Part shown: in pieces, positions 1-13,359 of the stretch | Position numbering within the stretch: position 1 is the stretch's first letter | Layout: each line of letters starts with the position of its first letter | Source: Bacillota bacterium | Lineage (GTDB): Bacteria; Bacillota; Sulfobacillia; JAJZYS01; JAJYTV01 | Direction of reading: 5' to 3' | DNA length: 44,992 nt | Assembly (NCBI GenBank): GCA_021793645.1 | Contig: JAJYSJ010000003.1 | Span: 1 to 44,992, forward strand | Position numbers and translations under genes: made by a program | The notes under the pieces: model-generated | What the model saw: the letters and a program-made list of their open reading frames with translations, nothing else | Told to the model about the DNA's origin: nothing | Databases searched by the model: none

Positions 1-160
1 GCCGGTGGTTCGGGTTGGTGTGTTCAATGGACAGATAGACGGCGATGAGTCCGTAGAGAACCGCGGCATGGCTGCTGATGGCGGGATTCCGAAGAAGTGC
101 CGTAGGGGTTTTCACCATAGGTTCGTTCCCGTACTTGCGCACGATGGCTCCCTGCGACAC
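1..160 (-). CDS. Winged-helix / GIY-YIG-like protein, copy 1, N-terminal part only
   Basis: This is the first ~53 codons of a gene that runs off the left edge. The GTG start (158-160) sits behind a GGGGGTGA ribosome binding site, and the same arrangement precedes the full-length paralog ending at 5510. After a divergent first ~30 residues, the stretch around HAAVLYGLIAVYLSIEHTNP aligns with HAVRLYGLIASCLSIERTNP of the paralog, the start of a winged-helix DNA-binding domain. It lies downstream of the HTH gene at 260-592, separated by a hairpin, exactly as in copy 2. The C-terminal GIY-YIG-like domain is not in the window, so only its presence in the paralog suggests it. Confidence 0.7.
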   Translation of the reverse strand, partial: MSQGAIVRKYGNEPMVKTPTALLRNPAISSHAAVLYGLIAVYLSIEHTNPNHR

Positions 161-175
161 CGCGTCACCCCCTCG

Positions 176-214
176 ACAAACAGAAACCAGGCCCCGCCGG
201 CGGCGGTAGCCTGG
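176..214 (-). terminator. Hairpin between HTH gene and winged-helix gene, copy 1
   Basis: The arms CCAGGC (187-192) and GCCTGG (209-214) enclose a GC-rich interior. On the minus strand the hairpin is followed by a T-rich stretch. The arm interiors differ from those of the copy-2 hairpin (6488-6514), yet the outer pairing is kept. This supports a real RNA structure, acting as terminator or attenuator after the HTH gene. Confidence 0.55.
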
Positions 215-259
215 CACTAATACCGTCTCTCGCGTTCGTGGCGGCTGCCCGCACCTGCT

Positions 260-592
260 TCAGGCAGGGTCAGGGTGTTGCTGAAATGCTTCCTGCTCAT
301 GCTCTTGGAGGATCCGTTTGACACGCCGAGGATGGGTGTCCAGCGCTGTAGCGATCTCTTGTAGGGATCTTCCGGCCTCTCGCATCGCAAGCACCGTGCT
401 GAGTGCCTTGTGTCGTGTTTGGCGCTGGAAGTCGCTGCGGCTGATCCATGTGGCTCCGTGGCCCCTGAACATTCTGCGCACCGTGTCCCAGCTCATCCCG
501 TACTCGTGGGCAATTTCCTTCAAGGTCAGCCCTTGTTCATGGTTGAGCCTGTAGACCTCATCGAACGACGGAGGCTGCAGCTCGGGGTCCAA
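260..592 (-). CDS. Small double-HTH DNA-binding protein, copy 1
   Basis: A 110-residue protein with two helix-turn-helix-like segments: residues ~20-45 (TLKEIAHEYGMSWDTVRRMF) and ~62-96 (LQEIATALDTHPRRVKRIL). Each resembles the HTH of resolvases and sigma-like or transposase N-termini. The only usable start is TTG at 592, without a convincing ribosome binding site, so translation may be coupled to the ATPase fragment, whose stop (558) lies 35 nt inside this gene. The copy at 6563-6877 is about 91% identical in DNA over 300 nt. The C-terminus carries a six-residue insertion relative to copy 2 (EQEAFQQHPDPA against EHPDPA). I do not recognise a named family. It could be a regulator, or the DNA-binding part of a mobile element. 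Confidence 0.65.
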   Translation of the reverse strand: MDPELQPPSFDEVYRLNHEQGLTLKEIAHEYGMSWDTVRRMFRGHGATWISRSDFQRQTRHKALSTVLAMREAGRSLQEIATALDTHPRRVKRILQEHEQEAFQQHPDPA

Positions 593-1622
593 CGGAAGGC
601 TTGCTTCTGCTGATATAAACTGAGTGTCCTGCTTTGTCTGATGCGATTACGGTGGCTGACCCTAGCGTCTCCACGGCCGGTAGGTGGCGGACCAGGGCGT
701 GGCGTCGGAGCATGCGTTGCACCCCGACCGCCAGCGCGATCGTGACTATGGCGGGGAGCCCTTCCGGGATCGCCGCGACCGCAAGGCTGACGCCCGCGAG
801 GAACATGTGGAAGAGGCTCTCGCCGCGCAGCACACCCGCGACCACGACGACTGCAGCGATGCCGAGGCACGCCCACACAAGTGTCTTGCCAAGCCCCTCC
901 AGGCGCTGCTGCAGCGGCGTCGCCTCCGCCGCCTGCTCAGTGAGCAGGCGCGCGATGCCGCCCATCGCCGTGTTCGTACCTGTCTGGGTCACGAGGCCGA
1001 CGGCGCGGCCGCGGATGATGGTGGTGCCGGCGAAGACCATGTTCTTGCGCTCGCTGATCGGCTCCCGGCCGCGACCTACCCATTCTGCGGACTTCGTCAC
1101 CGGGACGGACTCGCCCGTGAGGATCGCCTCTTCGACCCCGAGTTCCGTCGCCTGCAGGAGGCGGGCATCGGCGGCTGGCTTGTCGCCCGCCTCCAGCAGG
1201 AGCACATCGCCGGGAACCACGTCGGCGGCCGGGATCCTGACTTCCTCCCCGTCTCTGCGGACCCGGGCCGTCGGCGCCGACATCTCCTTTAGCGCTTCCA
1301 GGGATCTCTCCGCGCGGAACTCCTGCAACGATCCCAGCACGGCGTTGACGATCACGATCAGGATGATGGTGACCGCGTCGCCTACCTCGCCCAGCACCAG
1401 CGAAACTGCAGTGGCTCCGAGAAGGACAAGGACCATGAAGTCACGGAACTGTTCGAGGAAGACGCGGAAGAAGCTTCGCCGCTTCGGTTTGGGGAGTTCG
1501 TTTGGACCGTACTGGGCGAGGCGCCGCTTCGCTTCATGCTCCGAGAGTCCTTGAACAGCGTTGCTGGAGAGCTGCGCGGCCACTTCCGGCACGGACAGCT
1601 GGTGAACATCCAACTGAAGCAT
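558..1622 (-). pseudogene. P2-type cation ATPase truncated at the phosphorylation motif, copy 1
   Basis: The 354 residues match the N-terminal third of Ca2+-type P-ATPases (~900 residues). They include the cation-ATPase N-domain (residues ~8-75), two transmembrane segments (~60-100), an actuator domain with ILTGESVPV (TGES 169-172), and two more membrane segments with PEGLP (286-290) of helix M4. The catalytic DKTGT has become DKAGH (329-333), followed by 21 unrelated residues and a stop. The P and N domains are absent, so it cannot be a working pump. ATG 1622 has a strong AGGGGAGAGG site. The second copy at 6843-7907 is ~85% identical in protein and cut at the same codon. The reading frame is otherwise intact, so expression as a membrane protein remains possible. 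Confidence 0.8.
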
Positions 1623-1655
1623 GACCTCTCCCCTTTGCGCTGGGAGAAGCCTATG
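1623..1655 (-). promoter_or_regulatory. Invariant 33-nt leader of ATPase fragment, copy 1
   Basis: These 33 nt directly upstream of the ATG are identical to 7908-7940, and similarity stops abruptly beyond them on the upstream side. In the mRNA, TCTCCC can pair with GGGAGA, part of the ribosome binding site, across a 9-nt loop. The leader could therefore hide the site and control translation. Identity is perfect here although the adjoining coding parts are only ~79% identical. Confidence 0.45.
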
Positions 1656-1897
1656 CGTGCGTCGCGCCGGGTAGGAGCGGCCTCCGTGTGGTCAATTACG
1701 TTGCCCCGCCATGTCGCTGAGCAGACAGCGCAGTCGGCAACGCTGCGTATCACCTACACTGAGTCTCAGGTATGATTGGGCGTCGTTAGCCACACGGCCC
1801 GACTGTCATTGATCTCCTTCGACACTTCGTAAGGTATACTTAGCGCACCAGCCCGGCTGTTCCACCGGCTTCCCGCGGCCGACTAAGCTGTGAGCGC

Positions 1898-2673
1898 TTG
1901 CGGTACAGGAGACAGACAGACAGTGTATCGTTCGGGGTATTCGAGACCGGAGGACAGACAAGGCGCCTGCCATGGGGAGCAGCAGGCGTTTCGTGCAGGT
2001 GGGTCGACGGCGAGCGAGTAGTCCAGCCAGTGACGGGTTCGTTGCAAGGAGAAGCGGTGCGACGGGGCTCTTCTCTGGCGATGGACGTCAGCGGTGTGCC
2101 GCTCGGCCTGCTGACGTCGCGATTCTGGGCACGGGATGGCGAGAAGACAGCCGAGAAGGAAAGCCGCCGCTGGGTCGAGACGGTGCGTGAGGTGCGAGCG
2201 ATCGTGCCGGAGGACACGCGCGTCGTCGTCATCGGTGATCGAGAGAGCGACATCTTCGCGGTGTTCTCCGAGGCGAGGGCGGTGGGCGCGGATGTCCTAG
2301 TGCGCGCGACGCACAACCGAAAGCTCGCCGACGGCTGGCCGGATCTTCCGCGGCACTGGGGCAGGCCCCGCTGCTCGGCACGCTGGAGGTGGACATACCT
2401 CGCGGCCATGAGCATCCGGAACGCCACGTCACGCTCGCCCCTGCACGCCCAAGAGGTGCAGCTGCACCCACAGCTGGACCTCAGCGGAGCGAATCCCGTC
2501 CAGATGACTGTGGTCTCCGCATCGGAGATCGCTCCGCGGATGGCGAGACGCCCGTTGGCTGGGTGCTGCTCACTACGCTGCAGGCGCAAACGGCGGAGCA
2601 GGCCGCGGCCGCGGCCGTGGTGCGCTGGTACTCCTACCGCTGGCGCATCGAGAGATTCCACTACACCTTGAAG
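1898..2673 (+). pseudogene. Decayed Tn5/IS4-type transposase
   Basis: The remnants follow the order of an IS4-family (Tn5/IS50-like) DDE transposase. First comes GVPLGLL with a tract of R/E-rich sequence. Next is GDRESDIF with the second catalytic Asp (~2240). The C-terminal signature Y-x2-R-x3-E-x6-K follows, as YSYRWRIERFHYTLK (2629-2673). The similarity changes frame at least three times: frame 1 to ~2358, frame 2 at ~2365-2440, frame 1 at ~2453-2537, frame 2 after ~2540. The N-terminal DTT motif is not recognisable and the tail after the YREK lysine is lost. It is therefore an old inactive insertion. No terminal inverted repeats were found. The 240 nt before it hold nothing I can identify. 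Confidence 0.8.
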
Positions 2674-2751
2674 TTATCCGGCCAATCCTCGCTCAGATCA
2701 CCCCGCACGCGTTTAGACGCCCATTTTCAGATACTCGGCGGGCTTGAACGG

Positions 2752-2946
2752 TCAGGCAGGGGATCGCTTCCTCGGCGTCTGTTCACGCCCTGAGGTCTCA
2801 TTCAAGAAGCGCTGCAGCCGTTCTACGAGGTCGCGATGACGCTTGATCTCCTCGGTCCAGCCCCTGGCTTGGGCATGCCGGGCGTGAAGGTCCTCTGGCG
2901 CGGCTTTCAGCGCATGGAGATCTTCACCGCCTGGATCGTTGCTCAT
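2752..2946 (-). CDS. Possible small hydrophilic protein (64 aa), unsupported family
   Basis: An ORF of 64 codons starting ATG 2946. It is charged and helical in character (TEEIKRHRDLVERLQRFLNE). Only a weak AGG directly touches the start codon. It sits between the transposase remnant and the secreted protein gene. No family is recognised. It may be chance, or part of a broken mobile element. If it is not a gene, 2674-2978 is an intergenic stretch with no other signal I can see. Confidence 0.25.
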   Translation of the reverse strand: MSNDPGGEDLHALKAAPEDLHARHAQARGWTEEIKRHRDLVERLQRFLNETSGREQTPRKRSPA

Positions 2947-2978
2947 CCTAGGCGTGATGTGGGTAAGGGGTAGCCTTT

Positions 2979-3782
2979 TCAATGAGCGCGGACAACCGCG
3001 TTCGTTCGAACTCCTGTAATAGAGGTTATGACACGCCATAATCGTAAATTTTTGTCCCACAACCGAACACCGCTTGGAGCAATAACGCTTGCACAGGCAG
3101 GATCCTCCGAAAATGAGTATGAACCCTTTGTTGTCGAGAAGCGCACGGTTGCCGATGCCCCATCGTTGCCCAGACAACCGAGCACTCCTCGTACATCCAT
3201 CGGCAGAGTGTTCACAACTGTGAGCAGACCCCGCCATGATCGCGGGGATCTTAGCGTTCGAGCCGTCCAGAACACCTCCCCCGACGAACGAGATCTGACG
3301 AGGACCTTCTTCACCGCATACTCAACCAGAGTGGTCTTCGGTCTGGGTGGCGCAAGGATGACCTCACTTGCTAATGAATATAGACTGGTCGATCCCGATG
3401 GTTTCACAGTTAGAACGATAGTCATGTGGTCGCTTGAGCCCTTACTAAACTGCCAGCCCCAACCTTCGATCCCTTCTGTGAGGCTCGCGGTATAACCTCC
3501 AGCAACTTCTTGAAATCCTAACTGTCGCAATTTTGGCGAATAGTACGCGTAAATAGAGCGTGCCGACAGTGGGACTACGTAGCTTGTCATCTTAACGTGC
3601 AGAAGAGGGGATGTCGCTGTCACGAATGGCGCCAGCTTTCTGCTGCTGACGTGCGCTCCTGGAGGAGGTGGAGGAATGACGAATGGGTGATCCGCTGCAG
3701 CGGGCGTGGACAAGCGCCACATGACGGTAGCCCCCGTAAGCAGCAGGCCAAAAAATATAAAGGAGAGACTCCTTTTATACAT
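2979..3782 (-). CDS. Secreted protein of unknown function (267 aa)
   Basis: The ATG at 3782 is preceded by AAGGAG eight nt upstream. The N-terminus is a classic signal sequence: MYKR, a hydrophobic core FIFFGLLLTGATVMW, then a polar/Ala stretch TPAAADHP. The mature part begins with a proline run (IPPPPPG) and holds tyrosine-rich segments around residues 80-110. A second basic segment at ~155-180 is followed by a Gly/Ser-rich region with two cysteines (CLGNDG and DPACAS) that could form a disulfide. No family is recognised. Base composition here is less GC-rich than in the core genes further right, which suggests acquired DNA. It lies downstream of the G1 peptidase on the same strand, separated by a terminator-like hairpin, so it is probably transcribed on its own. 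Confidence 0.6.
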   Translation of the reverse strand: MYKRSLSFIFFGLLLTGATVMWRLSTPAAADHPFVIPPPPPGAHVSSRKLAPFVTATSPLLHVKMTSYVVPLSARSIYAYYSPKLRQLGFQEVAGGYTASLTEGIEGWGWQFSKGSSDHMTIVLTVKPSGSTSLYSLASEVILAPPRPKTTLVEYAVKKVLVRSRSSGEVFWTARTLRSPRSWRGLLTVVNTLPMDVRGVLGCLGNDGASATVRFSTTKGSYSFSEDPACASVIAPSGVRLWDKNLRLWRVITSITGVRTNAVVRAH

Positions 3783-3984
3783 GTCATATTCTCCTTCCTC
3801 GCCTCGCGCGCGTTGGGTGGCATAGCACGACAACATCAACCAAGCGATAGCAGCGGGTTGTGGGCACTCGTCCTGTAGCGTCTCCCTCCTTGGTCTCTTC
3901 TTGCTGAACCCCTATGGGCCGACTCCGTGACATGTGGAACGAAGACGCCATGCCATCCAGGCGGTCCTCGTCGGTGTAGAACTT

Positions 3985-4013
3985 GGAGGCGGCGAGCTAA
4001 TCTCACCGCCTCC
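3985..4013 (-). terminator. Hairpin after the G1 peptidase gene
   Basis: 12-bp arms (3985-3996 and 4002-4013), GGAGGCGGCGAG against CTCACCGCCTCC with one G-T pair, and a 5-nt loop. It lies 25 nt past the peptidase stop. There is no long T run, so termination may be weak. The rest of 3783-4037 shows no gene. Confidence 0.5.
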
Positions 4014-4037
4014 CGGGGCTACGTTATCCAGGCTGCG

Positions 4038-5009
4038 TCAGTGCCATGTCTCGGTAAAGCTTTCGTTGTCACTGCCCACAGCGCTTGGTTGGGAGAGGAC
4101 AGAACCTGTGCAGTTCGATCCCGAGTACATAGTAATCTTCGTGTAGTTGAAATCTGCGAACGGACCGTCAGTGTTGCCTCCCGTAAGTTGCGCGTAAGTG
4201 AAGGGCACAGAACCAAAGTCCGGGAGCGTACCCGGTCCGTTTGGCATCTCATTGATATAGTCAGCGCTCGACCCGTCGTAGTATGGAGTGGACGCGGGCC
4301 ACGGAGTGTACTTACCAGTAGACTCGTTCTCTAAGTAGTACTCGGTTTGTCCGTTCCCTTCGTAGTATACGGACACGTACACTGTGTTGCCCGGGGAAAT
4401 GACTGGTCCGACGTATTGGGGAGGGTTCGGGTAGTCTTCCACCCACATACGATATGATGGGGTCGGAGAGTTAGCGATCGACACCGTTCCGGCTTGGTCT
4501 ATGACATTGGACCCCGATGGGCCCCAGCCACCGATTCCCGTCCAGAATGCTGCTGCGGGCACAGGAGAGCCGCCGAGAGCCGGAACAGCCGCTATGACCC
4601 AGTCAGCGGATGTCTGAGTGTACGCTACCCCACCGTTATTTGCCGACTGATCCATATACCCTGCCCAGTTGGTAGAGCATGTTCCAGTCTCCGTTGCTGG
4701 TTGGATCTCAGGACTAACCCACGCAGGTGCCCAGACCGGGCTTGGGGCCACGTACGTCTTGGCGTGCTCCATTGCCTGAGTCCAGGCAGCCAACGCTGAT
4801 GCACTCGTGGGACGTGGCGGGAACCCATAAGCCTTGAGGGCCGCAGCCGAGGCAGTGAGAGGATTAAAGCCCGCCGGAGGAGCGGACACGCGCGCCGATA
4901 AACCCTGAGTGGCGTTCGCTGCTGCAGCATAAGTCACTGCCAAAGACCCTGATGCCAGTAAGAGTATGCCAGCAGCTCCAATTGCCAAGCCGATTCGACT
5001 TATGCGCAC
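4038..5009 (-). CDS. Secreted G1-family (eqolisin) glutamic peptidase
   Basis: A predicted 323-residue exported peptidase. The GTG at 5009 is chosen because GGAGG lies seven nt upstream; an in-frame ATG at 5024 overlaps that site. A signal peptide (IGLAIGAAGILLLASGSLAVTYAA) is followed by a ~70-residue propeptide-like part. The mature domain then starts near CSTNWAGYMDQ and carries G1 hallmarks: AFWTGIGGWG, IDQAGT (the region of the catalytic Gln), MWVEDYP, GSSADYINEMP (the region of the catalytic Glu) and FGSVPFT. G1 peptidases are acid-active and pepstatin-insensitive as a family. This suggests extracellular protein breakdown at low pH. It stands alone, 67 nt downstream of the small-gene operon. 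Confidence 0.85.
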   Translation of the reverse strand: MRISRIGLAIGAAGILLLASGSLAVTYAAAANATQGLSARVSAPPAGFNPLTASAAALKAYGFPPRPTSASALAAWTQAMEHAKTYVAPSPVWAPAWVSPEIQPATETGTCSTNWAGYMDQSANNGGVAYTQTSADWVIAAVPALGGSPVPAAAFWTGIGGWGPSGSNVIDQAGTVSIANSPTPSYRMWVEDYPNPPQYVGPVISPGNTVYVSVYYEGNGQTEYYLENESTGKYTPWPASTPYYDGSSADYINEMPNGPGTLPDFGSVPFTYAQLTGGNTDGPFADFNYTKITMYSGSNCTGSVLSQPSAVGSDNESFTETWH

Positions 5010-5076
5010 AAGGGCACCTCCCAAATGTGAATCGAACCCTCACTCCACGGGACTGACGCCTAATCTCGTCGCACCA

Positions 5077-5289
5077 TCACCCCCATTTTCTCCAGTATAT
5101 TCCTGCTCCCGTTGCGGTAGAGTTCACCAAAGGGGCCACCGATTCCTTCCATGCCCGATGAAACATGGGTGCCCTAGGATGGAACAGACCAGCGGACTGC
5201 GCCACCCCCTCCACCCCGACCTGCACGATGAAGCCGTCCAACTCGGGGAATCTGCACTTAGCCTGACCTCCCGAGAAGAAGCCGCTCAT
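5077..5289 (-). CDS. Unknown 70-residue protein, last gene of the copy-2 unit
   Basis: The ATG at 5289 overlaps the TGA of the previous gene (ATGA), so translation is coupled. The product starts MSGFFSGGQAKCRFPEL and is rich in Gly, Val and aromatic residues, with no clear signal peptide or membrane helix. It ends in the basic tail YWRKWG. No family is recognised. The tight overlap with two upstream genes, the first of which is the winged-helix/GIY-YIG-like protein, is the main reason to believe it is expressed. Confidence 0.5.
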   Translation of the reverse strand: MSGFFSGGQAKCRFPELDGFIVQVGVEGVAQSAGLFHPRAPMFHRAWKESVAPLVNSTATGAGIYWRKWG

Positions 5290-5495
5290 GACTCGACCCT
5301 CGGCAGCGGCCGTGCAACCAGGAACGCGGCGCCGCTCTCCAGCAGGCTCTGCACCGCGTTGTGCAGGCCGCCCGGCAAGGCAGTACGCTCGCGCGCGTCC
5401 CGCCAATAGCCGACCATCCAGTCCATGCGGATCAGGCCGGGCCACACGTTGTCAGGAATGATGCCGGGGAGAGGATTCTTCGTCTCCGTCAGCAT
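5286..5495 (-). CDS. Unknown 69-residue protein in the copy-2 operon
   Basis: Starts at ATG 5495, 14 nt after the stop of the winged-helix/GIY-YIG-like gene, and overlaps the next gene by four bases. The protein starts MLTETKNPLPGIIPDNVWPG and has a central aromatic segment (RMDWMVGYWRDARER), then LHNAVQSLLESGAAFLVARP, probably helical. No family is recognised. Its placement suggests it works with, or is regulated together with, its neighbours. A longer start upstream in this frame would overlap the previous gene and is less likely. Confidence 0.5.
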   Translation of the reverse strand: MLTETKNPLPGIIPDNVWPGLIRMDWMVGYWRDARERTALPGGLHNAVQSLLESGAAFLVARPLPRVES

Positions 5496-5509
5496 GTTCG
5501 GTTGGAGCG

Positions 5510-6463
5510 CTATCGCCCCCGGCGTGTCGCCGGCATCGACGTGCCCCCAAGGCCACCCATGAAGAGGCCCGCGGTCCACATCATCTGCACGAGCGCGTTC
5601 AGGCTGTCGCCCTTATCCAGGTAAGGCTCGAACGCCGCGCGCAGATCATCGACGCTGACCGGGTTGCGGTAGGCGTCGAGCCAGAACTGGTAGAGGGCCT
5701 CGGGCAACGGCACGAGCGCGCTGCCCGTCCACGCCCAACGCTCGCCAGGGTGCGCGGGCGGCAGCGGCGTCGTGATCAGCCAGTCCGGGTAGTCAGCGCC
5801 GAAGGCTGTGTTCCACCACTGTATCCTTGTAGAGGCGAGATGCTCTCCCCCACATGCCAGCCGCAGCGGCTCAGGCGAAGGACGGAACCATTCGCCACGA
5901 ACCCTCTGATCGCGGGAGCGGTCGTGGAGGGCCCGCTCGAGATCCGCCCCACCTGGATGTGTGCCGAGAAGCACGAGACGTTCCGTGGAGGCAGCCTGAA
6001 GCATTCGTAGTCGGCCTGCTACATCGGCGCTTACACCGATCTTTATTCCTCCGCCTTCGCGTTGGATGAAGTGCATCGACCGTTTCGTCTCTCCATCGAA
6101 CTTGTCATCACTCGATTGGAGAAGCGGATCTCCCTGCTCTCGCAGTAACGTGTAGACGCTGCCGATACGCAGCCCGCGAACGTCCACAATCGGCCTCACC
6201 TGGACCAAGCCAACAGCGACCAGCTCCCTAAGCGCCCGTCCCACAGTTGGCATGCTGACGCCCATGTCTTCGGCCAAGTGTCGCCGACTAGGGTTGGTGC
6301 GCTCGATGGAGAGGCAGCTGGCGATGAGCCCGTAGAGGCGCACGGCATGGCTGCTGAGGGTGGCGGACTCAAGGATCTGGACAGGGGCCGTAACCACAGC
6401 AGCGTCGCCATACCGGCAAACCACGCGGTCGCCACGCTGGCCGGGTCCTGTCTGTGTGGACAC
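5510..6463 (-). CDS. Winged-helix protein with GIY-YIG-like (T5orf172/MUG113) domain, copy 2
   Basis: 317 residues from GTG 6463, which follows a GAGGGGGTGA site shared with copy 1. Residues ~38-105 form a winged helix (RRHLAEDMGVSMPTVGRALREL, then a wing RPIVDVRGLRIGSVYTLL). Residues ~130-205 match the T5orf172/MUG113 branch of the GIY-YIG superfamily: HFIQREGGGIKIGVS, RLRMLQAAS, LLGTHPGGADLERALH, GEWFRPSPEPL. The C-terminal ~110 residues are unassigned. Members of this branch occur in phage and mobile DNA proteins. Whether this one cuts DNA cannot be told from sequence. It heads a three-gene overlapping operon and sits downstream of the HTH gene and the truncated ATPase. Confidence 0.75.
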   Translation of the reverse strand: MSTQTGPGQRGDRVVCRYGDAAVVTAPVQILESATLSSHAVRLYGLIASCLSIERTNPSRRHLAEDMGVSMPTVGRALRELVAVGLVQVRPIVDVRGLRIGSVYTLLREQGDPLLQSSDDKFDGETKRSMHFIQREGGGIKIGVSADVAGRLRMLQAASTERLVLLGTHPGGADLERALHDRSRDQRVRGEWFRPSPEPLRLACGGEHLASTRIQWWNTAFGADYPDWLITTPLPPAHPGERWAWTGSALVPLPEALYQFWLDAYRNPVSVDDLRAAFEPYLDKGDSLNALVQMMWTAGLFMGGLGGTSMPATRRGR

Positions 6464-6477
6464 CGCGTCACCCCCTC

Positions 6478-6514
6478 GAAAAGAGAACCAGGCTCCCCGG
6501 CGATGGGAGCCTGG
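6478..6514 (-). terminator. Terminator-like hairpin between HTH gene and winged-helix gene, copy 2
   Basis: Perfect 10-bp arms, CCAGGCTCCC (6488-6497) and GGGAGCCTGG (6505-6514), with a 7-nt loop. On the minus strand TTCTCTTTTC follows. This is a textbook intrinsic terminator shape for the upstream HTH gene. It lies only ~15 nt before the next start codon, so an attenuator role is possible. Confidence 0.7.
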
Positions 6515-6562
6515 CACTAATAACGTCGTCTCTTCCGTTGGCGGTAGCCGCCCGCACCTGCT

Positions 6563-6877
6563 TCAAGCAGGGTCGGGGTGTTCATGCTCTTGGAGGATCC
6601 GTTTGACGCGCCGAGGATGGGTGTCCAGCGCTGTTGCGATCTCTTGTAGGGATCTACCGGCCTCTCGCATCGCAAGCACCGTGCTGAGTGCCTTGTGTCG
6701 TGTTCGACGCTGGAAGTCGCTGCGGCTGATCCATGCGATTCCGTGGTCCCTGAACATTCGGCGCACGGTGTCCCAGCTCATCCCGAACTCGCGAGCGATT
6801 TCTTTTAGGGTCATCCCCTGCTCGCGGTTAAGCCTGTAGACCTCATCGAACGACGGAGGCTGCAGTTCGGGTTCCAA
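6563..6877 (-). CDS. Small double-HTH DNA-binding protein, copy 2
   Basis: 104 residues from TTG 6877, the position equivalent to the copy-1 start. HTH-like segments are TLKEIAREFGMSWDTVRRMF (~23-42) and LQEIATALDTHPRRVKRIL (~77-95), joined by a basic linker (SRSDFQRRTRHKALS). It overlaps the end of the truncated ATPase by 35 nt. In this copy the frame stays open further upstream, but only because it shadows the ATPase coding frame. DNA identity to copy 1 is ~91%. The family is not recognised. A DNA-binding role is inferred from the HTH motifs alone. Confidence 0.65.
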   Translation of the reverse strand: MEPELQPPSFDEVYRLNREQGMTLKEIAREFGMSWDTVRRMFRDHGIAWISRSDFQRRTRHKALSTVLAMREAGRSLQEIATALDTHPRRVKRILQEHEHPDPA

Positions 6878-7907
6878 CGGAAGGCTTGTTTCTGCGGATA
6901 TAAACTGATGTTCCAGTCTTGTCGGAGCAGATGCAGGTGGCTGAGCCAAGCGTCTCCACGGCGGGCAGGCGGCGTACCAGCGCCTTGCGGCGCAGCATCC
7001 GCTGGACCCCCACGGCCAGCGCGATCGTGACGATCGCCGGGAGCCCCTCCGGGATCGCAGCGACAGCCAGGCTGACGCCTGCGAGAAACATGTGGAACAG
7101 GCTCTCGCCGCGCATGACTCCCGCAACCACAACGACTCCCGCGATGGCGAGACAAGCCCATACGAGAGCCTTCCCGAGGCCCTCCAGCCGCTGCTGGAGC
7201 GGAGTCGCCTCCGTCTCCTGCTCTGTCAAAAGACGCGCAATCCCGCCCATCGCAGTACCACTGCCCGTCGCGGTGACGAGACCCACCGCCCGGCCACGGA
7301 CGACCGTCGTGCCGGCGAAGACCATGTTCTTGCGCTCGCCGATCGGCGCTCTGGCATCGCCAAGCCACTCGGCCGACTTCATCACCGGCACGGACTCGCC
7401 GGTCAGGAGAGCCTCCTCCATGCCAAACTCGGTGGTTTGCAGCAGGCGCGCGTCGGCCGCCGGCTTGTCGCCTGCCTCGAGCAGCAGGATGTCGCCTGGA
7501 ACAACCTCCGCTGCCAAAATCCGCAGTTCTCCACCCTCGCGCCGCACGCGGGCCGTGGGCGCCGACATCTCCTTCAGCGCTTCGAGGGACCGCTCTGCAC
7601 GGAATTCCTGCAAGGCGCCGAGCACGGCGTTCACGACCACGATCAGGAGGATCGTGACTGCGTCGCCCACTTCGCCGAGCACCAACGAAACACCAGTCGC
7701 CGCCAGCAGCACGAGCACCATGAAGTCGCGGAACTGCTCGAAGAAGACTCGCAGAAAACTGCGGCGGCGGGCCTTGGGCAGTTCGTTCGGCCCGTACTGT
7801 TCGAGGCGCCGCTTGGCCTCGCGTCCCGAAAGTCCCGCGCTCGCATTGCTGGAGAGCTGCGCGGCCACCTCGGGCACGGGCAGCTGGTGCGCATCCACCT
7901 GAAGCAT
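6843..7907 (-). pseudogene. P2-type cation ATPase truncated at the phosphorylation motif, copy 2
   Basis: 354 residues with the same domains as copy 1: N-terminal cation-ATPase domain, LTGESVPV in the actuator domain and AAIPEGLPAIV in helix M4. Here the phosphorylation motif is intact (CSDKTGT). The next codons leave the family and match the copy-1 tail (SVYI-R-KPSVG), ending after 21 residues. All of the nucleotide-binding part is missing, and it is not found anywhere down to 5077. It cannot complete the catalytic cycle. The ATG at 7907 has the same strong ribosome binding site as copy 1. Differences between the copies are mostly synonymous or conservative, which suggests protein-level selection at some time, before or after truncation. 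Confidence 0.8.
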
Positions 7908-7940
7908 GACCTCTCCCCTTTGCGCTGGGAGAAGCCTATG
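7908..7940 (-). promoter_or_regulatory. Invariant 33-nt leader of ATPase fragment, copy 2
   Basis: Identical to 1623-1655, with the same possible pairing of TCTCCC with GGGAGA of the ribosome binding site. Sequence similarity between the two copies ends exactly at 7940, so this is also the upstream boundary of the duplicated unit. Confidence 0.45.
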
Positions 7941-8433
7941 AACACTTGCTGAGCCGTAGCCCCGTGCAGGCTACATGCGCTCCCCTCCAGTCGAAGACCG
8001 GTGCGGCTTCCCCGAGAGCCCCCGTACGGAACGCGAGACCAGACTCCCGTCGCGCAAGGTCTCTACCGCAGGCCTGGCATCCGTGGTACCCGGGTTCAGG
8101 AGGTCGCTGGCATGCGCTTGAATTTCCGTGGAAGCCGTCTGCAAGCGCGACGCGTGACCCGCTAAGAAGCCTGATGCGGGAACGAACACCCGGGCCGCTG
8201 GCGGAAACCCACCAATCCGCATGGTGCAGTGCGCGCGACATAACCGCGCCAACTGGCCCCTGCCGCCTGGCCGTTCCTCATTCCGATCTTGCGCTAGCCT
8301 AGTGTGTAGTTCGTCGGCCCATTGCGACGTATGCCGCAGCGACGAATGGCAGGGGTTGTGAACGCCATCACACCCCTGCCATTCCCCTGGCACGTCTGCG
8401 GCCGACGACATACTCCTGGGAGGTGTGTACACG
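7941..8433. other. Divergent intergenic region upstream of the cytochrome operon
   Basis: About 490 nt without a convincing gene. ORFs exist on both strands (for example 7971-8444 minus) but lack ribosome binding sites and the strong GC third-position bias of the real genes. The only clear structure is the palindrome at 8345-8383. Promoters for the ATPase fragment (leftward) and the cytochrome operon (rightward) must lie here, but I could not fix their boxes. Confidence 0.5.
8345..8383 (+). promoter_or_regulatory. Long palindrome in the leader of the cytochrome operon
   Basis: Arms AATGGCAGGGGT (8345-8356) and ACCCCTGCCATT (8372-8383) pair perfectly. Three more pairs follow after one bulged T, with an 8-nt loop. 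It ends 50 nt before the first start codon and has no T run after it. An mRNA leader hairpin or a regulator binding site is more likely than a terminator. Confidence 0.5.
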
Positions 8434-8529
8434 ATGGTCAACAACGTCTGGCCGAACTATATCGTCGAGGGGCTCCTGCTCATCACCATCGTCGCTTCGC
8501 TGATTCTCCGGTACCCGCACCATGGGTAG
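8434..8529 (+). CDS. 31-residue single-helix membrane protein before cytochrome b
   Basis: The ATG at 8434 follows GGGAGGT, and the TAG overlaps the ATG of the cytochrome b gene at 8522. The peptide starts MVNNVWPNYIVEG, has one membrane helix (LLLITIVASLIL) and ends in RYPHHG. It is too short for standard gene finders. Good ribosome binding and coupling to cytochrome b suggest a small stabilising subunit of the complex, comparable in kind to the small single-helix subunits of b6f complexes. I see no sequence similarity that proves homology to those. Confidence 0.65.
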   Translation: MVNNVWPNYIVEGLLLITIVASLILRYPHHG

Positions 8530-9163
8530 CCGGCAGACCGGTCCGACAAACTGGACAGCGGCAGTACGCGGGCGGCTCGAGGACATCACCTGGGACTCCT
8601 TGCTGCCCACCGAACAGCCGGTATATGTGCGCTCCGTCGTGTACAGCTTCGGTGCCCTGACGCTCGGATCACTCGTGATCGTGATCGCCAGTGGCATCCT
8701 CCTCGCGGCCAATGGACCGTTCTGGTGGCAGACGCCGGGTGCGGGAGTGTTCGTACGTGGCCTCCATTTCTGGGGAGTGCAGACGTTCTTCTTCTTCATG
8801 ATTCTCCACCTGACGGCCCAGTTCTTCATGGGCTCGTGGCGACTCGGCCGGGGCGGAACATGGATCCTTGGCGTACTCAGCTTCGCCACATCCGTTATCA
8901 CCGCGTTCACGGGCTACTTGTCGAGGGGAGACTTTTTCTCCCAGTGGAACCAGGTGCAATCCAAGGATGCCTTCAACGGCGCCGGCATCGGCGCTTGGTT
9001 CAACGTCCTGAACAACGGCCAGATCTATGGGCTACATATTGCGGTGCTTCCCGCGATACTGGTTGCACTCGTCAGCCTGCACCTGCTGCTCGTGCGACGG
9101 CTCGGCGTGGTGCCGCCCTATCCGGCCGACAACCAGCTTGAAGAGAAGGAGGCGGAGCGATGA
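8522..9163 (+). CDS. Cytochrome b6-type membrane subunit of a quinol oxidoreductase
   Basis: 213 residues, the size of a split (b6-like) cytochrome b N-terminal part with four transmembrane helices. The two heme b groups would be held by four histidines in two helices: GLHFWG and ILHLTAQF in one, GLHIAVLP and SLHLLLVR in the other, all present. The GYLSRGDFFSQWN stretch corresponds to the quinone-site loop after the second helix. Role: electron transfer from a quinol, probably menaquinol, across the membrane. Its stop overlaps the next start (ATGA). No Rieske protein gene is in the window. Confidence 0.88.
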   Translation: MGSRQTGPTNWTAAVRGRLEDITWDSLLPTEQPVYVRSVVYSFGALTLGSLVIVIASGILLAANGPFWWQTPGAGVFVRGLHFWGVQTFFFFMILHLTAQFFMGSWRLGRGGTWILGVLSFATSVITAFTGYLSRGDFFSQWNQVQSKDAFNGAGIGAWFNVLNNGQIYGLHIAVLPAILVALVSLHLLLVRRLGVVPPYPADNQLEEKEAER

Positions 9164-10146
9164 GGCGCTACGAGACCGATCCTGCGGCGTACTCGCAGAC
9201 GAGGTTTGACCTTGTCAAAGAGGCGGTGATCGGCGGCGGCATCGCGGCACTGCTCATCGTCGCTGCCGCGCTGGTCTTTGGAGTTCCATACGTGAAGCCT
9301 CTGACGATCCAGAAGGTGGCGACGACGCAGCCGGTCTTGTTCCTGCGGACGGCTGCCCGTGAGCTTGGCGGGACGTCGACCATCGCGCAGTACGGTCCGC
9401 CCTACAACCACGGAACCGGAAGCGTGCAATCGCTCGGGCCGCTGCGTCCGCAGATGCTTCTCGGTGTCACCACCCCGATCAACACATCCGAACTCGACGT
9501 CCTCAAGCCGCTGTCGATGGCAATGCCGCTCGACCCGGCCCTCCGGCCAACCATCGCCCTGTGGAGGGGCGCAAGCCATGCCCAGCAGCAGACCTGGGTG
9601 CAGGCGTACCTGGCAGCGCTGTCGGCGGCTACGGCGCATCGCAACACCGTGCATGTCCCGCAGGCTGCGGATGGGCCCGTCCCGGCGATGCTCTCGGCAT
9701 TGCGCAAGTTGGCTGCCGGCGGGCTGATGTCGGGAGCGATCGATCGGTCGACGCCCGTCTACGGCTACGACGTGGCGCCGAGCCTGCTCTTCCTCCAGGG
9801 CGCGGCGCTCCAACAGATGGCGGGTCGCTACGACCTGCTAGGGGGGGAGTGGGGGATCATGCACGATGAGTACAGCTACCCAGGTCCGTGGTGGCTGACG
9901 CCCTACTCCGCCCTCTACCAGATCCCTCCATATTCGACCTCGTCGTCAGGCGACGCGCTGGCAGCCTACACGATGCTTCTGGCGCTTGTGGTGCTGCTCG
10001 CGCTCCCGTTCATTCCAGGGCTCCGCGACCTCCCGCGCCGGCTGCGCGTCTATCGGATCGTCTGGCGGGATTGGTACAAGGCCGAGGAACGCCAAGCGGA
10101 ACCGCACTCCACCGACACCTCGCCGCAGGGGAGAGATGCCTCGTGA
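9160..10146 (+). CDS. Membrane partner of cytochrome b, subunit IV-like at its C-terminus
   Basis: 328 residues, with a GAAGGAGG ribosome binding site inside the preceding gene. One helix near the N-terminus (AVIGGGIAALLIVAAALVFG) is followed by a large region (~50-255) predicted to be exposed outside the membrane, and a C-terminal helix (LAAYTMLLALVVLLALPFIPGL). The end, PFIPGLRDLPRRLRVYRIVWR, resembles the tail of cytochrome b C-terminal subunits in some Gram-positive and related bacteria. No CxxCH heme motif is seen. It probably replaces subunit IV in this complex. The assignment rests on gene order and the C-terminal segment. Confidence 0.65.
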   Translation: MRRYETDPAAYSQTRFDLVKEAVIGGGIAALLIVAAALVFGVPYVKPLTIQKVATTQPVLFLRTAARELGGTSTIAQYGPPYNHGTGSVQSLGPLRPQMLLGVTTPINTSELDVLKPLSMAMPLDPALRPTIALWRGASHAQQQTWVQAYLAALSAATAHRNTVHVPQAADGPVPAMLSALRKLAAGGLMSGAIDRSTPVYGYDVAPSLLFLQGAALQQMAGRYDLLGGEWGIMHDEYSYPGPWWLTPYSALYQIPPYSTSSSGDALAAYTMLLALVVLLALPFIPGLRDLPRRLRVYRIVWRDWYKAEERQAEPHSTDTSPQGRDAS

Positions 10147-10376
10147 AAGGCGCGCGTTTCCCTCTCCTGTGGGTATTGGGCTTGACGTTGGGGACGCTTG
10201 GCACAGGGTTTCTATTCGATGCCATGACGCAAGGCAGCTCCATGGATCTGCTCATCGGCCTCGCGTTGTTCCTTCCTGGGCTGTATCTCGCAGGGAACGT
10301 GCTGGCAAGAGCCCGGCGCATCTACCGGCAATCGGCTGCCCCGCGCCGCTCCCGCAGGTCCCAGGCTCACGGGTAG
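10143..10376 (+). CDS. Small two-helix membrane protein, end of cytochrome operon
   Basis: 77 residues from GTG 10143, overlapping the previous TGA (GTGA), so it is translationally coupled. It has two hydrophobic segments (FPLLWVLGLTLGTLGTGFLF and DLLIGLALFLPGLYLAGNVL) and a very basic tail (RRIYRQSAAPRRSRRSQ) that should stay in the cytoplasm. No family is recognised. Its place in the operon suggests an accessory subunit or assembly factor of the cytochrome complex. Confidence 0.65.
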   Translation: MKGARFPLLWVLGLTLGTLGTGFLFDAMTQGSSMDLLIGLALFLPGLYLAGNVLARARRIYRQSAAPRRSRRSQAHG

Positions 10377-10377
10377 T

Positions 10378-10438
10378 GCGGGGACGATTAGTTAGTTAGG
10401 GCCGCGTTGTGCGGGCCTAATCTCGGCCCCGTCCCTGC
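10378..10438 (+). terminator. Composite hairpin after the cytochrome operon
   Basis: The outer arms GCGGGGACG (10378-10386) and CGTCCCTGC (10430-10438) pair with one wobble. An inner pair GGGCCG/CGGCCC (10399-10404, 10424-10429) stacks below them. It lies between convergent genes. There is no T run, so the call is tentative. Confidence 0.4.
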
Positions 10439-10489
10439 AGACACGTCCGAATGTTCGGGGCGCAGTGCGGAGAAACTCTCCTGGCCGGT

Positions 10490-11680
10490 TCAGATGCGGC
10501 GCTTGAACCGATACCGCACGCGGCGCCTGCGTCGGGAGCGCCAGCGCCAAAGAACGCTCACGAAGCCGACGGCGAACACGGCGGCAATTGTGGACAAGAG
10601 GAAGTGACTGCTCTTCTTGGGCGCTGGAGAAGGCCCGCTCGCAACGAGTGGAATCGTCGCCAGGTCATCCGCTGCAAGTCTCACCAGCACCTGTCCTACT
10701 GGCTGGCCCTTGCGCCAGACTGCAGGCCAGTGAACCGTCGCCTGAATCGCCGGCAGGGTCTGCCCAGGACCGACAAGCCAGGAGTAGCCCGCTGTCGCGA
10801 CAGCGCGCGCACCGTCTGCGGCATGGCCGAAGACATCTCCGCGCTGCACGACCCCCACTTGGCGGTAGTGTGCGAAGCCCCAGTTGAGAAGGTTCTGCGG
10901 GTCGGTCCACATGTGGTAGAAGTCCGAGTGCAGCACCACAGCGATCAGGGTCACGCCGCCACGCGTGGCCACCGTGACGATGGACTGCTTGGCCTGGACC
11001 GTGTAGCCGATCTTGCCGCCAACCGCACCCGGGTAGCGCCAGAGCTCGAGGTTCTGGTTGTACATCGTGTACGGCTTGGGATCCCCGGGGAAGCGAAAGC
11101 TCTTGGCGGCATCGATCTGGCGGAACGCAGGGTAGGTGAAGGCTGCACGGGTGAATAGCGCCAGGTCGTGTGCTGTCGTCAGGTGGCCGGGAAGGTAGAG
11201 CCCGTCCGGGTTCAAAAACGTTGTGTTCGTCGCGCCAAGCTTCTTCGCTTCTGCATTCATCTGCGCAACGAAGCGGGGCACCGAGCCTGCCTCGGCAATT
11301 GCCAGTTCGACGGCGGCGTCGTTGCCTGAAACGAGCAGAAGGCCGTACAAGAGATTGCGGATCGTCAGCTTCTGCCCCGGTACGAGGTACGCTGAACTGC
11401 CCTCGACGCCGTACGCCTGAGGGGATACCGTGACGGTGCGTTGGAGGTCGCCGTGCATCACGGTCAGCAGGGCGGTCATGATCTTCGTGGTGGAGGCCGG
11501 TGCGAGTCTGACATTCTGATTGTGGGCCAAGAGCACTTGGCCCGTCGTCGCATCGATCAACTCATAGCCAATTCCCTTGACCGACGGCAAACTGCTCGCA
11601 GCCTCGGCCCCTTGCGCAGGCAGCGCAATCACGCAAAGCAGCAGCACAGCCGCGAGCGTACGTATAAGTCCTGCGTGCAT
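10490..11680 (-). CDS. dacF: D-alanyl-D-alanine carboxypeptidase (DacF/PBP5 family)
   Basis: 396 residues. It trims the terminal D-Ala from peptidoglycan stem peptides outside the membrane. The signal peptide is LIRTLAAVLLLCVIALPAQGAEA. Active-site motifs are STTK (SxxK, ~63-66) and SGN (~119-121). The third motif reads GGKIGYT where the family normally has KTG. A PBP5 C-terminal domain (~285-350) is followed by a membrane helix (FLLSTIAAVFAVGFVSVLW) and an Arg-rich tail, giving two possible anchors. GGGGGG precedes ATG 11680. It diverges from the methyltransferase gene. The KIG change may alter substrate binding, but the fold assignment is safe. Confidence 0.88.
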   Translation of the reverse strand: MHAGLIRTLAAVLLLCVIALPAQGAEAASSLPSVKGIGYELIDATTGQVLLAHNQNVRLAPASTTKIMTALLTVMHGDLQRTVTVSPQAYGVEGSSAYLVPGQKLTIRNLLYGLLLVSGNDAAVELAIAEAGSVPRFVAQMNAEAKKLGATNTTFLNPDGLYLPGHLTTAHDLALFTRAAFTYPAFRQIDAAKSFRFPGDPKPYTMYNQNLELWRYPGAVGGKIGYTVQAKQSIVTVATRGGVTLIAVVLHSDFYHMWTDPQNLLNWGFAHYRQVGVVQRGDVFGHAADGARAVATAGYSWLVGPGQTLPAIQATVHWPAVWRKGQPVGQVLVRLAADDLATIPLVASGPSPAPKKSSHFLLSTIAAVFAVGFVSVLWRWRSRRRRRVRYRFKRRI

Positions 11681-11730
11681 TGTGTCCCCCCGGGTTTGTA
11701 CCGTTCCCTTTCTTCTTTCCCTCGCAAGCC

Positions 11731-11758
11731 TTGTCCTCCCGGGAAATTCGGGTAGGAT
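11731..11758 (+). promoter_or_regulatory. Probable sigma-A type promoter of the methyltransferase gene
   Basis: TTGTCC (11731-11736), a 16-nt spacer and TAGGAT (11753-11758), about 50 nt before the GTG start. It fits the vegetative consensus moderately. Confidence 0.4.
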
Positions 11759-11805
11759 ACACGGCAGATCACACAGAATGTCAGCCGTCGAGGGAGGGGT
11801 GCGTT

Positions 11806-13359
11806 GTGAACGGCGGGTTGCCGGACATCACAGATGACCTCCAACTGCTGTTAAAGCGCGCCGTCTTCTTCGATCCCTGGCTGGCCGCGTTGACCGAGCA
11901 GGACCTCGAACCGCGGGTCGAACTGGTCCTCGACGAAGGCGTGCGCGATTTGATGCGTCACTTCTGGACTGAACGCGACCGAGCGCAAGCCCTGGGCGTC
12001 CTTCCCGTCTACGACCAACTCGTCTCGGAGAGCCTGCGCACCTGCATCTTGTCGACGGCCTGCCTGCGCGCTGTCTGGGACGGACTGCCGCGCGTTCCCA
12101 ACGAGGCCCGGATGCTTGCACTCCTCAAGGACCTGCACGAGTTCTCCACGTTGCACGGCCTCGGAGCAATCGTGCGTGCGAGCATCGGCGTCCTCGCCTA
12201 CGAGAACATCTCCGCCTTGGACTACTACGACGGCATTCGCGAGGAGGACTTCCTGCAGGGCCGGCTGCACCGTCCCTGGGTCGCCTCCAGTCTATCCAGT
12301 GAACTCACGTTGATGCTGACGCTCGACGCCGCCGCCATCGAGATGAGCCAGGGAGTCCGCTACGTCCGGCTCACGCCGCACGGGCGCAAGCGCGGAAGAG
12401 AACTCGGCGACCAACTGCGCGCCGCCAAGTACATCGACAGGCGCGTCCAGGCGCTCTACGTGGCCCATTTCGACTTAAACACCGACGGCTACGACCACCT
12501 TTTCGATCGGTTCATACCCTCTCTGCCGTTGGCCCGCAAACGACTGCTCGAGATCTTCGCCCCAGTTCAGGGATCGCGAGTGCTTGAACTCGGGTCCGGC
12601 ACCGGCATCTTTACGTTTGAGACAGGGCTCTGCCGGGCGGTCGGGCCGGACGGCGAGCTGTACGCGCTTGAGCCGGCCCAGGAAATGACGACCGTCGCAC
12701 GTCAGCGCGCCCAGATGTGCAGCATCCGAAGTGTGCGATTCGTCCAGGGGCGGGCAGAGTCGACTCCATTCGAGGACGGCCTGTTCGACGGCGTCGTCAG
12801 TTCTCTGATGCTCCACTTCGCCGACGCCGAGCGGACGTTCGCCGAATGCTTCCGCATCCTGCGGCCTGGCGGACGCGTGGCGATGCTCTGGATGTTCGCC
12901 TGGGACATCCAGGAGAGCCGCCCGTTCTTCGAATGGATGGAGCCAATGCAGGCGCTCGTGCAGCGCCCGCATGAGAGCGGGTTCACCAACCGCCGCTTTC
13001 TTACCCTCGAACATGCGCAGGCGCTGCTGACACGTGCGGGCTTTGTCGACGTGCACACGGAGCGCATGGCACTGCCGCATGAACTTTGGCACGTGGAGGA
13101 CGTCGTGCGCGCAACCCTGGCCATGGGGGTGTACCAGCGAGAGTTCGAGCAGCTGCCCTGGGCGGCTCGCCAGGATCTGATCCGTGAACTGATCGCGCGC
13201 GGAGAGGCCGCCCGCCAGCGCTATTCGCATGAAGAACTGACCGCCACGAACTACGCAGGGTTCCTCAGCGCACGCAGGCCTGACGAACCCGGAAGACACC
13301 TGCGTCCGGCGATCTCACTCGAGCGTCGGCGCCGCGTCAGCCGAACAGGCGGCGCATGA
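11806..13359 (+). CDS. SAM-dependent methyltransferase with long N-terminal domain
   Basis: 517 residues from GTG 11806 behind GGGAGGGG; the longer upstream frame has no such site. Residues ~250-400 form a class I methyltransferase: motif I VLELGSGTGIFTFE, then LYALEPAQEM with the acidic residue for the SAM ribose, GRAESTPFEDGLFDGVVSS and a FRILRPGGRVAMLWM strand. The N-terminal ~240 residues are helical. They include EMSQGVRYVRLTPHGRKRGRELG, reminiscent of a winged-helix wing and recognition region, but the fold is uncertain. The substrate is unknown; small molecules or cofactors are typical for this type-11 branch. Its 3' end overlaps the convergent MerR-like gene by 23 nt. Confidence 0.75.
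   Translation: MNGGLPDITDDLQLLLKRAVFFDPWLAALTEQDLEPRVELVLDEGVRDLMRHFWTERDRAQALGVLPVYDQLVSESLRTCILSTACLRAVWDGLPRVPNEARMLALLKDLHEFSTLHGLGAIVRASIGVLAYENISALDYYDGIREEDFLQGRLHRPWVASSLSSELTLMLTLDAAAIEMSQGVRYVRLTPHGRKRGRELGDQLRAAKYIDRRVQALYVAHFDLNTDGYDHLFDRFIPSLPLARKRLLEIFAPVQGSRVLELGSGTGIFTFETGLCRAVGPDGELYALEPAQEMTTVARQRAQMCSIRSVRFVQGRAESTPFEDGLFDGVVSSLMLHFADAERTFAECFRILRPGGRVAMLWMFAWDIQESRPFFEWMEPMQALVQRPHESGFTNRRFLTLEHAQALLTRAGFVDVHTERMALPHELWHVEDVVRATLAMGVYQREFEQLPWAARQDLIRELIARGEAARQRYSHEELTATNYAGFLSARRPDEPGRHLRPAISLERRRRVSRTGGA

Follow-up and report, generated by a model that had tools for sequence, protein, structure and literature searches.

Truncated P-type ATPase genes as probable attachment junctions of a phage-like element with a putatively self-splitting serine integrase

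At the start of contig JAJYSJ010000003.1 of the Bacillota assembly GCA_021793645.1 two P-type ATPase genes are cut at the same catalytic codon, as the initial annotation of this DNA had pointed out. We analysed positions 1-44,992 (the window, 44,992 nucleotides, which is the start of contig C28 in our genome G000 of 94 contigs) together with related genomes, all of which are assemblies in many contigs. Very probably the truncated genes are the left attachment junctions (attL) of a phage-like element that a large serine recombinase (LSR) inserts at the lysine codon of the DKTGT motif, while the attachment site attP appears to lie inside the open reading frame (ORF) of the integrase, so that integration would detach a double helix-turn-helix (HTH) module from this protein. 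The evidence is drawn from sequence and consists of both types of junction, an empty site, the symmetry of attP, the discordance between host and element identities and open frames across every join of LSR and HTH. From it we infer that recombination takes place, that LSR and HTH are produced as a fusion and that loss of the module alters activity or directionality.

Insertion at the catalytic lysine codon

Both ORFs lie on the minus strand (1622-558, copy 1; 7907-6843, copy 2), have 354 codons each and begin as a P2A-type P-type ATPase. A domain search finds Cation_ATPase_N and E1-E2_ATPase as the sole domains in each of them, and the similarity to ATPases is lost right after the Asp-Lys of the motif, which reads DKAGH in copy 1 and DKTGT in copy 2. 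Over the N-terminal halves the copies are 78.4% identical in DNA, close to the difference of about 21% given in the initial annotation. The common downstream module described there is likewise present, as both copies run into the same HTH ORF (91% amino acid identity) and then into a GIY-YIG/MUG113 gene. The tail that continues in the ATPase frame (SVYISRSKP...) is not a conserved frame; the HTH frame is. As to the type of pump, the intact orthologue of genome G004 scores best with PMR1-type and SERCA-type Ca2+ ATPase models, in both cases below their cut-offs. The features at the two junctions are as follows.

634-1622, minus strand: copy 1 ATPase N-terminal half, Ca2+-type (P2A), from the ATG to the Lys codon of DKTGT
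606-638, minus strand: attL of copy 1, GAC-AA-AGCAGGACACTCAGTTTATATC, core AA at 634-635, inside the Lys codon
260-622, minus strand: double-HTH ORF of the recent element (putative integrase C-terminal module in the reconstructed circle), no ATG or GTG start, TTG at 592
6919-7907, minus strand: copy 2 ATPase N-terminal half, at the ancestral locus, with upstream synteny to relatives
6891-6923, minus strand: attL of copy 2, GAC-AA-GACTGGAACATCAGTTTATATC, core AA at 6919-6920
6563-6907, minus strand: double-HTH ORF of the older element

The missing C-terminal half is found on another contig of the same genome. In a profile search the ATPase C-terminal domain PF00689 has a single occurrence in G000, on contig C2, in an ORF which starts at the first ATG past the junction (MTVRRLL...). 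Immediately 5' of it lies an ORF whose product combines Resolvase, Recombinase and Zn-ribbon domains. The initial annotation had considered that a C-terminal half located elsewhere would indicate a split gene; the half is indeed located elsewhere, but it is flanked by attR and the integrase, as an insertion predicts. Two full-length types of this protein are available, one shared by G000, G001 and G006 and one from G005, which are 60% identical. Both contain PF00239, PF07508 and PF13408, which together with a catalytic-type YTRVSS motif identifies them as LSRs. A match to the phage integrase family phrog_95 was obtained for the LSR (E = 4.8e-107). Among curated models, CcrB and XisF come nearest to it, all far short of the cut-off (XisF score 127, cut-off 375). 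At the very start of C2 (L018, 1-40), just upstream of the LSR, we noticed the sequence GGTTATAAACTGAACATCCCG, which resembles the attR arm GGATATAAACTGAAGTCCCC; it may be the terminal part of a further LSR gene, or else another att-like site.

In the orientation of the ATPase gene attR reads GGATATAAACTGAAGTCCCCACT-AA-GACCGGCACC, and attB is GAC-AA-GACnGGnAC, with the crossover dinucleotide AA in the Lys codon (AAG) of DKTGT. The core AA is common to attP, attB, attL and attR. Joining attR and attL by their element sides yields an attP that is an imperfect palindrome around the central AA, which is the inverted-repeat layout usual for LSR sites. Its arms are symmetric at 12-16 of 22 positions, compared with 0-59 of 20,000 shuffles.

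Junctions of this kind are present on both sides in G001, G005 and G006, three more members of the family to which G000 belongs, and a fourth, G002, harbours a divergent element at the same DKTGT codon; the codon was thus hit by independent insertions. Chance is therefore excluded, and the suspicion that the truncation is not random was justified. Uninterrupted ATPase genes, which the initial annotation had suggested looking for, exist in two members of the family (G004 and G008); G003 was left out because its contig ends next to the DKTGT site. Finally, an empty attB was assembled in G001. It reads DKTGTLTRNEMTVRRLL in frame and is intact over 108 bp, which are identical to the C-terminal half behind attR on another contig. 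The same scaffold also holds attL, after a run of N. Thus, integrated and empty states are both present in the sequenced material, and the open frame of the empty site is the one that precise excision would restore.

Two observations from the search for relatives are added here. In the divergent element of G002 a transposase-like ORF comes after the HTH (contig C339; L022, 9478-10033), and this element may be broken. Short ATPase C-terminal frames occur elsewhere in the class, of which those of G021, G024, G103 and G137 are cut by contig ends and that of G028 by an assembly gap; none of them is demonstrably interrupted at DKTGT.

The initial annotation had offered two explanations. According to the first, an old truncated gene was duplicated and kept for another task such as sensing or regulation. 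In its favor, both N-terminal halves are open and their pairwise dN/dS is 0.08. However, the intact pair G004-G008 has an equally low value (0.145), and therefore selection on the N-terminal half alone is not demonstrated. Intact orthologues, the C-terminal half beside an integrase, an element identity far above the host identity (see below) and above all the empty open-frame site of G001, which contradicts the duplication of one ancestral truncated gene, make this explanation highly improbable. The second explanation was an element that inserts at the conserved DKTGT codons in the manner of homing elements. The insertion holds, but the agent is different, as a large serine recombinase chooses the conserved codon as attB. 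Homing driven by the GIY-YIG gene, or a self-splicing intron or intein at the site, might be suspected from the MUG113/T5orf172 (GIY-YIG-like) domain encoded just inside the element. Yet both ends are LSR-type att half-sites, the junction lacks the splicing residues of an intein, the size of the element (at least 14 kb in G005) far exceeds that of an intron, and an Rfam search of window positions 1-12000 at E up to 1 returned no intron or other known RNA. The further variant of a self-splicing intron with a homing endonuclease was rejected for the missing Rfam match and for the location of the exons on different contigs with LSR att half-sites. We hardly give homing or splicing any credence.

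The integrase reading frame across attP

If attR and attL are joined, the LSR frame runs stop-free into the HTH frame. The join reads ...GYKLKSPLR-QDTQFISAEASLPLDPELQPPSFDEVYRL... in the G000/G001/G006 type and ...NKPIILPR-QDTQFISAEASLPLDPE... in G005, and the joined LSR-HTH ORF of 657-667 codons is open in every join built with one of the two full-length LSRs. After integration it is the host sequence that terminates the LSR within about 4-13 codons. On C2 the frame enters the host gene for about 13 codons before a stop, and in G001, G005 and G006 the stop is a TGA hidden in the CTG/TTG-ACG of DKTGTLT. The HTH ORF has a pN/pS of 0.15 in frame as compared with 1.4-1.7 in the other two frames, and the HTH frame is therefore under purifying selection. 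The module is predicted to consist of a disordered linker followed by two trihelical HTH units. A Foldseek search with this model gave no match at E up to 0.001, and VIA-align gave generic HTH matches with Z < 8, one of them a 40-residue match to the Tn3 resolvase DNA-binding domain, and identified no family. Other HTH look-alikes in the class proved to be IS3-type transposase proteins.

We suggest that the cycle proceeds in the following steps. The LSR would integrate the element at the Lys codon (AAG, core AA) of the Ca2+-type P-type ATPase gene. Copy 2 would be an old insertion at the ancestral locus that has decayed, and copy 1 the left end of a recent insertion, the right end of which, with the LSR, attR and the ATPase C-terminal half, would lie on C2. 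Precise excision would restore the ATPase, and in the excised circle attP would be located within the integrase ORF. Integration would detach the C-terminal double-HTH module, and the host gene would supply a short new C-terminus and the stop codon. We lean towards the view that this is a bacterial LSR with attP in its own gene, which would exist in a double-HTH form in the free circle and in a module-less form in the lysogen. Such an arrangement would be a built-in switch between integration and excision and the first self-splitting serine integrase.

It is also possible, though in our opinion rather doubtful, that the LSR inserts the element as described but that the HTH is a separate gene which starts at a TTG beside attP, the in-frame read-through being a coincidence. 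Phage integration modules usually place attP next to int. Five of the six HTH members have a TTG, and in the structure model order sets in only at about residue 17-20, that is, after the TTG. On the other hand, three divergent members (the G000/G001/G006 type, the G005 type and G002) have an open frame from the attP core onwards, and G002 has no start codon ahead of the HTH domain. The residues QFI directly at the attP arm are invariant in all six members, down to 42% identity. Furthermore, the 11 codons before the only TTG of the HTH appear to be coding in the HTH frame, with a pN/pS of 0.29 as against 0.80 and 1.13 in the others, numbers which derive from few sites.

Several points weigh against our interpretation as a whole. 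No contig spans attP or the complete element, and the LSR-HTH ORF is therefore a reconstruction. The odds for an in-frame join by chance are about 1 in 3. The HTH could start at the TTG, and the product would keep the folded part. The assemblies consist of many contigs, such that mis-binning of single contigs is possible. Lastly, no virion gene is linked to the element; a search for the large terminase in five genomes gave two marginal matches only.

Nature and mobility of the element

As no virion gene is linked, the label prophage rests on the replication, recombination and tRNA genes. In G005 the element extends for at least 14 kb behind attR and carries phage replication and recombination genes, as it encodes the LSR, an RNA ligase, an RNase H-like protein, an HNH nuclease, MazG, RecT and a RecE-like exonuclease. 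We also observed in the G005 element an array of at least 30 tRNA genes, including those for Met, Trp and Tyr, together with the RNA ligase (L035, 12612-13975; L039, 507-5219, contig C49). Contig C63 of G000 encodes a phage-type DnaB, next to which lies a homologue of one of the element's genes. In the bins the assembly lacks the central part of the element. Searches of IMG/VR retrieved no close free phage carrying attP, the HTH or the LSR and no close phage for RecT or the C63 proteins, and among phage and plasmid records there was no match to the HTH.

One may ask whether the element is a non-phage integrative element (an ICE, an IME or plasmid-like) and no prophage. The lack of structural genes on the linked contigs and the nearest curated LSR models, CcrB and XisF, distant as they are, are compatible with this. 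Against it stand RecT, the RecE-like exonuclease, MazG, HNH, the RNA ligase and the large tRNA array, which are typical of phages, the match of the LSR to phrog_95 and the fact that we noticed no conjugation gene on the contigs of the element. We regard a non-phage element as unlikely. The phage-like character of the element is well supported by its gene content, while a complete temperate phage is not demonstrated.

The element is much more similar between genomes than the gene in which it resides. Copy 1 of G000 and G001 are 97.1% identical in the element and 80.1% in the ATPase; for G005 and G006 the values are 97.4% and 82.2%, and across genera about 89-91% and 73-77%. Window bases 1-127 are identical to a contig end of G006, a genome from another genus; at the attR side, G001 and G006 have exactly 127 bases in common. 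These overlaps of 127 bp could be assembly-graph nodes of one metagenome assembled at k = 127, with the element shared by several hosts.

The two copies in the window differ in age. The element end of copy 1, which is cut at window position 1 where the contig begins, is nearly identical to that of G001. Upstream synteny, which is shared with G002, G005 and G006, leads into copy 2, and this copy therefore occupies the ancestral locus. Copy 1 marks one end of a recent element, and copy 2 is a decayed remnant. In line with this assignment are the genes behind the HTH ORFs.

1-217, minus strand: gene of the recent element for a winged HTH and a GIY-YIG-like (MUG113) domain, truncated where the contig ends
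5292-6517, minus strand: prophage remnant in which decay has fused the GIY-YIG (MUG113) gene with another element gene that is frameshifted

Within the latter, a single intact gene of C63 is matched in two parts, by 5839-5528 and by 5564-5292, with the frameshift near 5550. Upstream of copy 1 the translations of window positions 1898-2700 read as degenerate transposase or insertion sequence (IS)-like frames. One possibility is that the N-terminal half of copy 1 was imported as a donor segment, aided by this degenerate IS-like sequence at about 1900-2700.

Two further observations concern the surroundings of the ATPase genes. Between both copies the window encodes a protein of the peptidase A4 (G1, eqolisin) family (4038-5024, minus strand). 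In eight of eight orthologues a hairpin of -17 to -24 kcal/mol (CAUAGGCUYYUCCC...GGGGAGAG..AUG) lies directly 5' of the ATPase ATG. The ribosome site lies within the hairpin, in most orthologues the start codon is paired as well, and the window has no match in Rfam. It could possibly be a leader for translational control.

1619-1655 and 7904-7940, minus strand: hairpin before the ATG (also in L021, L022, L036, L072, L073 and L177)

Relation to known systems

The insertion is that of a gene-interrupting LSR element of known type, as SP-beta in spsM (PMC4191935), with a new target. SP-beta in spsM, skin in sigK, gin in gerE and the A118-type elements in comK all split a host coding gene in frame by means of an LSR, and precise excision restores the gene (PMC4191935, PMC5595907). 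What differs in our case is the gene that is hit, a cation ATPase of the P2A type, which is interrupted at the codon of its catalytic Lys. A serine recombinase also moves the gene-interrupting fdxN element of heterocysts (PMC4874684); its XisF is among the nearest models, but the low score mentioned above, the host lineage and the target gene set it apart.

The archaeal SSV-type "suicidal" tyrosine integrases carry attP within the integrase gene, which is split on integration, and a review finds self-disrupting recombinases only in archaea (PMC8371274). Our element shares with them the attP inside the integrase ORF, here reconstructed from attL and attR and not seen on one molecule. It differs in that the enzyme is a bacterial serine recombinase whose catalytic domain stays whole after integration, only the C-terminal double-HTH module being lost. 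In the integration-dependent immunity of the mycobacteriophage BPs and its relatives attP is situated in the repressor gene (PMC9262239); common to both is an attP in a regulatory reading frame, whose protein product depends on the integration state, whereas in BPs the attP is held by the repressor, the integrase is a tyrosine recombinase and the attB sites are tRNA genes. In the open-access literature, with its incomplete coverage, we found neither a P-type ATPase as attB of a serine integrase nor a serine integrase with attP in its own gene. The serine-integrase version of an attP in the gene would be new.

In summary, the catalytic codon of the pump is a conserved attB which related elements have used repeatedly in one bacterial family, across two genera. 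The control of direction is the central question for serine integrases in phage biology as well as in genome engineering. If our suggestion is true, an integrase which exists in two forms, set by the side of integration, would be a natural test of the role of the C-terminal module in direction.

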